Assembly: GCA_017549205.1 (NCBI GenBank)
Contig: JAFYVH010000021.1
Coordinates: forward strand, 62,001 to 126,000
Source: Clostridia bacterium
Lineage (GTDB): Bacteria > Bacillota > Clostridia > UBA1381 > UBA9506
Reading direction: 5' to 3'
DNA length: 64,000 bases
Below the pieces are notes generated by a model. That model worked only from the letters and a program-made list of their open reading frames with translations, did no database searches and had not been told where the DNA came from. Position 1 is the first letter of the stretch. Each line of letters opens with the position of its first letter. Of this stretch, positions 26,841 to 27,711 are shown piece after piece. The position numbers were made by a program, and so were the translations under genes.

Positions 26841-26869
26841 TTGCAATTTGGCTCAATTTAGTGTATCAT
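26841..26869 (+). promoter_or_regulatory. Promoter of the S10 ribosomal operon
   Basis: TTGCAA (26841-26846), 17 nt, TATCAT (26864-26869), about 400 nt before rpsJ. Confidence 0.72.
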
Positions 26870-26875
26870 TAAAGG

Positions 26876-27271
26876 GCTGTGACATGACATACGATGATGC
26901 GGGAGGTTGCTGCCAGAGGGCAGGTTTTTCCGCGGAGAATGTCCGATTCAAGAAACCGGGCGACTAGTCATACGCAAATGGAGAGAAAAAAAGCTTGTTA
27001 GAGGCGGTTTTGTCTGCCTTTTTGTCCTTTTTTATTTTCGTTTGTGTTCGGGATTTCCAATGGGGAAGACCGCAAAAAGCGTGACTGAGCCCAGAACCGT
27101 GAGGTTTTTGGGTTTTATTTATGGCAAGGGTTGCAACACCCGGCCGTGTGTACGCTTTTTAAAAATGCCATTTGGTTTTCGTGTGGCATTGGCGAGCCGT
27201 TTCTTCATGCACAGACAAAAATTTGCTTCCTATTATATAGGGGCTCCAAAATTTAGAAGGAGGAAAGACAA
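26876..27271 (+). ncRNA. Long structured 5' leader of the S10 operon
   Basis: About 395 nt of transcribed leader without a credible gene. The first part (26890-26970) is GC-rich with GCGGGAGGTTGCTGCC and CGGAGAATGTCCGATTC blocks, and several pairings are possible. Later come a terminator-like hairpin (27090-27120) and an AATGCCA/TGGCATT hairpin (27167-27193). Length and structure suggest r-protein-mediated attenuation. The ligand is not identified. The stretch 26711-26840 upstream shows nothing definite. Confidence 0.55.
27090..27120 (+). terminator. Putative attenuator in the S10 leader
   Basis: CCCAGAACC (27090-27098), loop GTGA, GGTTTTTGGG (27103-27112), then TTTTATTT. Looks like an intrinsic terminator inside the leader. 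Confidence 0.6.
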
Positions 27272-27583
27272 ATGGCACAAAGTCAGAAAATCAGAATCAG
27301 ACTCAAGGCATATGATCATGTTCTTTTAGATCAGTCTGCCGAAAAAATTGTTGAAACAGCCAAAAGAACCGGCGCAAAGGTTTCAGGACCTATCCCCCTG
27401 CCGACCAAGAAAGAGGTTGTTACAATCCTGCGTGCTGTTCACAAGTACAAAGACTCCCGTGAGCAGTTCGAAACCAGAACACACAAGCGTTTAATCGACA
27501 TTTTGCTGCCCACCAACAAGACAGTTGATGCTCTGATGAGAATCGAGCTGCCCGCCGGTGTGGACATCGAAATGAAATACTAA
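27272..27583 (+). CDS. rpsJ: 30S ribosomal protein S10
   Basis: A 103-residue S10 beginning [16 protein letters not shown] with the conserved [16 protein letters not shown] loop. It is part of the 30S head and, as NusE, of antitermination complexes. First gene of the S10-spc-alpha run, behind the long leader. Strong AGAAGGAGG RBS. No tuf or fusA is upstream, unlike many Firmicutes. Confidence 0.98.
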
Positions 27584-27711
27584 TGTGTTTCGCAAACCGA
27601 AAGGCTCTTGTCGGCCCCAAGGTTTGTTAAAAGGCACTGCTGCGCAAGCAGCGGGTCATGTTCCTCCCTTTTGGGATGAACCAATAACCAATTTATTTAG
27701 GAGGTGCTTTT

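Follow-up and report, generated by a model that had tools for sequence, protein, structure and literature searches.

A two-domain leader RNA of the clostridial S10 operon with a candidate antiterminator between the known S10 domain and a terminator-like hairpin

The leader of the S10 operon in this Clostridia genome appears, with somewhat more confidence than doubt, to be a two-domain RNA that responds to a ribosomal protein and attenuates transcription through competition between P3, the last hairpin of the S10 domain, and hairpin A, a terminator-like hairpin further downstream. The best reading of the comparative data is autogenous transcription attenuation in the order of the source genome, with leaders in the rest of the class coupled in other ways. 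The finding is partly known already, since domain 1 is a full-length match to a catalogued Rfam family (RF03136); the model of that family does not extend to the conserved RNA at 27074-27216, which holds a second domain (domain 2). Positions are those of the window, the whole stretch of 64,000 nucleotides that was analysed. The gene, its start signals and domain 1 are as follows.

26841 to 26869, forward strand: promoter-like site TTGCAA-17-TATCAT, with a TTGC block invariant in 16 aligned family leaders
26885 to 26966, forward strand: domain 1, the S10-Clostridia ribosomal protein leader (Rfam RF03136; 48.4 bits, gathering score 35.1, full model 1-81)
26940 to 26962, forward strand: P3, the last hairpin of domain 1 (26940-26945 with 26957-26962), from folding and as the last stem of the Rfam consensus
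27257 to 27263, forward strand: Shine-Dalgarno (SD) sequence AAGGAGG of rpsJ, from sequence and aligned across family leaders
27272 to 27583, forward strand: rpsJ (S10), first gene of the S10 operon, from the open reading frame call

The gap between the upstream open reading frame (end 26710) and rpsJ is genuine, and rpsJ is followed by a run of ribosomal protein-like open reading frames (gene names assigned by eye). The first-pass annotation had proposed a long leader of about 395 nt here, which is supported by a conserved promoter-like site some 400 nt 5' of rpsJ; from this site to the rpsJ start the leader measures 396 nt, and the sequence places the probable transcript start near 26876. 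Promoter-like sites are no rarer in this region than expected by chance (2 found, 1.6 expected), and the promoter call rests on the invariance of the TTGC block in the family leaders, not on the rarity of the site. A second promoter-like site of equal score lies at 27208-27236, so a transcript may also start close to rpsJ. The predicted fold of the whole leader was more stable than all of 100 dinucleotide shuffles (z = -3.67). When family leaders were aligned from promoter to rpsJ, conservation was strong well past the Rfam domain and continued through the order and much of the class, which agrees with the GC-rich, conserved-looking blocks first remarked on in the single sequence.

The same annotation had suggested a clostridial ribosomal protein leader, and this proved correct and already catalogued, with RF03136 covering 26885-26966, upstream of rpsJ at the head of the S10 operon. 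Only RF03136 and tRNA reached their gathering scores in an Rfam scan of the window; at 27074-27216 no family did so, and the matches up to E = 10 there fell far below gathering scores. At E <= 0.001, RF03136 matched 17 of 20 genomes of the family, 77 of 95 of the order, 236 of 393 of the class and 120 of 299 of the phylum, as well as 2 of 14 control genomes (Bacillus subtilis and Lactococcus lactis). One S10 leader (L179) has a domain 1-like sequence and the strict core described below while its RF03136 match stays below the gathering score.

Two terminator-like hairpins lie downstream of domain 1.

27003 to 27033, forward strand: T1, a terminator-like hairpin (stem 27003-27018) with a U-rich tail, inside a larger predicted hairpin at about 26972-27048
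27089 to 27120, forward strand: hairpin A (27089-27113) with a U-rich tail, terminator-like, from score, folding, complementarity and covariation

Hairpin A, with the sequence CCCAGAACC-GUGA-GGUUUUUGGG followed by UUUUAUUUA (27090-27120), is present about 150 nt before rpsJ, as had been annotated, and its terminator score is borderline: d was 1.2, a value that 2 of 20 shuffled leaders also reached with their best hairpin, and a simple terminator scan did not list it. Among order leaders its score was above zero in 37 of 68 and zero or below in 31 of 68. By rule, a terminator-like hairpin occupied this position in 58 of 68 core-bearing order leaders and was absent from 10; in core-bearing leaders of other families outside the order it was found in 22 of 76, and in one class family (L079-L097), which keeps domain 1 and the core, in 1 of 17. 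Where hairpin A was present, 17-20 nt separated its U tract from the core segment downstream in 56 of 58 leaders of the order and 18 of 22 others, and this near-constant distance suggests that the hairpin may also serve structurally. A terminator hairpin with a U tract is thus conserved in relatives, and its stem covaries.

T1 scored slightly better than hairpin A (d = 3.3) and was present in the 9 aligned leaders of the same genus. Being located 5' of hairpin A, it is not accounted for by a switch between P3 and hairpin A, and when the transcript was folded to 27030 it showed no competition with domain 1; it may be a pause site or a constitutive attenuator. By eye, a hairpin with a CUAUGCC-like arm and a U tract recurs at the position of 26972-27048 in some other leaders (L016, L128). 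T1, the two-domain build of the leader and the competition between the S10 domain and the terminator had all been missed in the first reading of the sequence.

The candidate switch itself is a short complementarity. The 5' strand of hairpin A begins GCCC (27089-27092), and its base is usually CCC in relatives; it is complementary to GGGC (26958-26961) in the 3' strand of P3, which makes this strand the candidate switching strand in the modelled structures. At least 4 Watson-Crick pairs between the base of the hairpin A 5' strand and the P3 3' strand were possible in 67 of 76 leaders and in 43 of 215 control hairpins, a comparison that ignores relatedness and draws its controls, terminator-like hairpins from elsewhere in clostridial DNA, by a similar but not identical rule (a stricter first control comprised 56 hairpins). 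The order subset gave 50 of 54, or 54 of 54 when G-U pairs were counted, as the four exceptions (L021, L030, L038, L050) carry C-to-U changes that preserve hairpin A as well as its pairing with P3. When the transcript was folded to 27100, 26958-26961 paired with 27089-27092 at a probability of 0.99-1.0 and P3 was open. In the ensemble to 27122, hairpin A accounted for about 75% and the antiterminator for 25%, while the single best structure retained GGGC:GCCC; by 27165 both P3 and hairpin A had re-formed. Because the best fold to 27122 keeps GGGC:GCCC and the fold to 27165 restores P3 and hairpin A, the timing of transcription must decide the outcome. In these models the candidate antiterminator would exclude both the terminator and folded P3, so that the predicted geometry of the leader is that of anti-antiterminator, antiterminator and terminator. 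The attenuation RNA that had been raised as a possibility thereby gains comparative support, from the terminator shape in most order leaders and from the conserved complementarity of the antiterminator; on the link to NusA raised with it, the data are neutral.

Downstream of T1, the leader folds into a second domain, with hairpin A inside its closing helix, and into a long-range helix near the SD.

26877 to 26887, forward strand: 5' strand of the long-range closing helix, pairing with 27205-27214 in the fold to the SD
27074 to 27083, forward strand: 5' strand of P0, the closing helix of domain 2, from folding; the P0 of the order covaries
27120 to 27148, forward strand: hairpin B (hairpin D/B), with outer stem UAUGGC/GCCGUG and inner stem GGGU/ACCC, from folding and from covariation among order leaders (U-A to C-G in the inner stem)
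27136 to 27151, forward strand: domain 2 core ACACCCGG-NNNN-GUGU, from alignment A2 and pattern counts
27151 to 27160, forward strand: 3' strand of P0, from folding and covariation
27196 to 27200, forward strand: 3' element GCCGU, at the position of (U)GUCG in most order leaders and a third predicted partner of the P3 3' strand (probability 0.73-0.91)
27205 to 27214, forward strand: 3' strand of the long-range closing helix (UCAUGCACAG), from folding

The consensus of the core is GAAAC-R-C-M-CGG, about 4 variable bases and GUGU (ACRCMCGG...GUGU in its short form). The strict form of the pattern matched 106 of 158 clostridial S10 leaders, compared with 1 of 3160 dinucleotide shuffles, and a lenient, hand-tuned form matched 144 of 161 leaders, 7 of 168 loci having given no usable leader; some of the 17 without the lenient core are mis-anchored, and a core-like stretch can be seen by eye in L103, L104 and L108. 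The class leaders comprised 60 hand-picked regions and the best 30 loci by score from the class RF03136 search. Several core positions are invariant in alignment A2, which holds 71 of 84 dereplicated leaders; the core deviates in some of the 13 that were excluded by hand (L117, L122, L124, L137), so A2 overstates the conservation of the core. The core hairpin ACRC/GUGU was paired in 91.9% of the aligned leaders' cells, with no two-sided change in the covariation count, and the core is found amid differing surrounding hairpins. One leader (L117) appears by eye to carry two core-like stretches in tandem.

The core keeps close company with the S10 leader. When named genomes were scanned for the pattern, at least 120 core matches emerged, 80 of the names being taken as those of Clostridia; among the 120 listed, 117 stood no more than 400 nt 5' of rpsJ and in the same orientation, and the other three lay near a contig end (L239), between gmk-like and rpoZ-like genes (L242) and at a locus without rpsJ (L320). 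In the source genome, the core model had a single strong match, the S10 leader (45.3 bits), followed by one at 21.8 bits (E = 0.11). Across the phylum the 52-position core model R1 matched 8 of 299 genomes, one of which (L181) has no core upstream of rpsJ; as R1 is weak at genome scale, leaders were read at RF03136 matches instead. Mimicry of rRNA by the core was considered and rejected: as 20 family genomes yielded no 23S rRNA, three further genomes of the class were searched for rRNA, and in the 16S and 23S loci screened (two each, from two class genomes) R1 and a core weight matrix matched nothing beyond an S10 leader that stands beside an rRNA operon (L210). Domain 1 was represented in this screen solely by its GGAGNAUGUCCG block. 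The L210 leader lies, in its class genome (G320), about 0.3 kb downstream of a 23S rRNA gene on the same strand.

The helices around the core show the covariation across relatives' leaders that the first-pass annotation had named as a check. Alignment A1 holds 50 of 54 dereplicated order leaders, four (L016, L019, L059, L062) having been left out by eye as seemingly rearranged in this region. In it, P0, hairpin A and hairpin B together were paired in 81.8% of cells, with two-sided changes in 14 of 20 pairs and a covariation score of 0.211, compared with at most 0.108 in slid controls. Hairpin B was paired in just 70% of cells; its inner pair was U-A in 46 leaders, C-G in 7 and a mismatch in 3, and the GGGY strand was absent from 12. 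RNAalifold applied to A1 predicted hairpin A alone. Outside the order the P0 strands co-evolve, native duplexes being 9.6 standard deviations better in energy than swapped ones (z = -9.6, n = 54, 0 of 2000 permutations); 89% of native combinations and 55% of swapped ones had 8 or more closing pairs. Within the order the same swap tests were not significant (240 of 2000 permutations; at least 8 closing pairs in 60% native and 59% swapped), and many of its sequences are alike. The order also has a long insert before domain 2; in class leaders outside it, P0 starts immediately after the Rfam domain.

In the fold to the SD, the long-range helix between the 5' end and 27205-27214 had a pairing probability of 0.99-1.0 at 9 of its 10 pairs and of 0.6 at the last one; the 3' strand of P3 shifted to 27196-27200. 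Lineage variants of this helix could be seen by eye. Its order-wide swap test was not significant (z = -1.46, with 389 of 5000 permutations at least as good), and a swap test of longer segments for a 5'-3' helix of this kind gave no signal.

Leaders from beyond the class throw light on how domain 2 may have arisen. The best 30 RF03136 loci from the 120 matched phylum genomes supplied 26 leaders (L184-L209), two of which (L187, L202) belong to this class; by eye, domain 2 is missing from 22 of the 24 other-class leaders, in which the SD follows the S10 domain after a few bases at most, often at a junction GGGCGA-AAGGAGG, and many stand shortly after a tuf-like gene. The remaining two (L194, L198, from one genus, which also appears as L182) show both a closing helix and a core-like stretch. 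Given its absence from 22 of 24 other-class leaders, domain 2 looks like a class-typical insert placed between the sensor and the SD. Some members of the class have, at the end of this insert, a hairpin adjoining the SD (UCGUACUU/AAGUGCGA and variants), which has its GUCG strand in common with P0. The strands of this SD-side hairpin fitted better natively than when swapped (z = 4.8, 0 of 5000 permutations), and 16 of 37 leaders had 6 or more pairs; in the source order the swap test did not detect such a hairpin (z = 0.1). Several L079-L097 leaders hold the SD between GUCG and CGAC strands, which suggests a translational switch there.

A separate conserved hairpin element was observed between rpsJ and rplC, at 27652-27689 directly before the SD of rplC (GGUCAUGUU...AACCAAUAACC, with AUGA...CCGCUGU in other families). 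In either form it occurred in 222 of 249 rpsJ-rplC gaps (loci other than L184-L209, nearly all of this class, with relatives kept); the figures for shuffles and for the gaps of L184-L209 were 3 of 1245 and 2 of 23. The Rfam scan of the window gave no match at 27652-27689. It is possibly a leader of rplC (L3).

The proposed mechanism would run as follows. A ribosomal protein of the operon, when in excess, would bind domain 1 and stabilise it, P3 included; closed P3 would withhold GGGC from the GCCC of hairpin A, hairpin A would form, and RNA polymerase would stop about 150 nt before rpsJ, both termination and its direction being predicted from the structures. When the protein is scarce, P3 would open, the GGGC:GCCC antiterminator would form and the polymerase would read through, after which domain 2 would close via P0 and, in this genus, the 5' end would pair just before the SD. 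The core may act as a binding or docking site. By analogy, L4 and S10 are the natural ligand candidates.

The principal competitor holds that control is primarily translational, with domains 1 and 2 gating the SD through exchange of CGAC and GUCG strands and hairpin A a mere structural arm. It is given a minor but appreciable share of belief, as the 22 domain 2-free leaders from other classes place the SD directly after domain 1, the SD-side hairpin elsewhere in the class uses the same GUCG (z = 4.8) and the distance from hairpin A to the core is near-constant; that hairpin goes undetected in the source order, however, and the U-rich tail of hairpin A and its complementarity to P3, found in most order leaders, would be needless in a mere arm. 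Domain 2 might instead be an independent second sensor, of another ribosomal protein or an assembly factor, making the leader an integrator of two inputs. The invariant core positions of A2 (drawn up without 13 leaders, some with a deviating core), the occurrence of the core with different surrounding hairpins and its attachment to the S10 leader, seen in the 117 listed matches upstream of rpsJ and the one strong match in the source genome, are what such a sensor would explain, but the 16S and 23S loci of two class genomes hold no look-alike of the core, and this account is judged rather unlikely.

Much less credence still attaches to the view that domain 2 serves the long S10-spc-alpha operon in processive antitermination or in polymerase loading: its site directly before a very long operon and the single strong core copy in the genome would suit such a role, but the Rfam scan of the window found no family at gathering score besides RF03136 and tRNA, and domain 2 is linked instead to domain 1, through the closing helix and the complementarity to P3. 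Attenuation by competition between P3 and hairpin A is retained as the preferred reading for this order. As a more speculative extension, held as doubtful, the Clostridia S10 leader as a whole could be a two-input RNA in which the core reads a second, protein ligand; domain 2 would have been inserted between sensor and SD early in the class and would have rewired SD occlusion into attenuation in some orders, elsewhere into an SD-side switch.

A large part of the ribosomal protein set is encoded by the S10-spc-alpha cluster. A conserved domain beyond the catalogued leader, together with a concrete candidate antiterminator (26958-26961 with 27089-27092), makes its regulation directly testable, and the leaders form a natural series in which one sensor adjoins the SD, an SD-side hairpin or a terminator. 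The S10 leader of Firmicutes was reportedly first described by Yao et al. in 2007.

A later survey treats this leader as already established in Firmicutes, adds many further examples from Clostridia and notes that the ligands of most such ribosomal protein leaders are predictions (Eckert and Weinberg, 2020; PMC7247131). The full 81-position match 5' of rpsJ shows that domain 1 here is the same RNA as RF03136, but the model ends before domain 2 and is without P0, hairpin A, the core, a terminator or the SD. Neither a second S10-leader domain nor competition between P3 and a terminator is described in Rfam or in the available portions of open-access main texts (PMC7247131, PMC2965389, PMC6429828, PMC4342826 and PMC10931766 among them), a scope that leaves aside supplements and the founding 2007 paper. 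The S10 domain is thus known, and domain 2 and the competition between P3 and the terminator are apparently new, with the supplementary alignments perhaps showing more. The Escherichia coli S10 leader, which is regulated by L4, is likewise a long structured leader of the same operon and is believed to work by premature termination together with an effect on translation (PMC10931766). An E. coli-type S10 element gave no Rfam match in the window, the presence of such a model in Rfam being unconfirmed. In the bL20 and L10(L12)4 leaders of Bacillus subtilis, the ribosomal protein favours a terminator over an alternative structure, as proposed here (PMC10931766); those leaders belong to other operons, and the likeness noted is one of logic.
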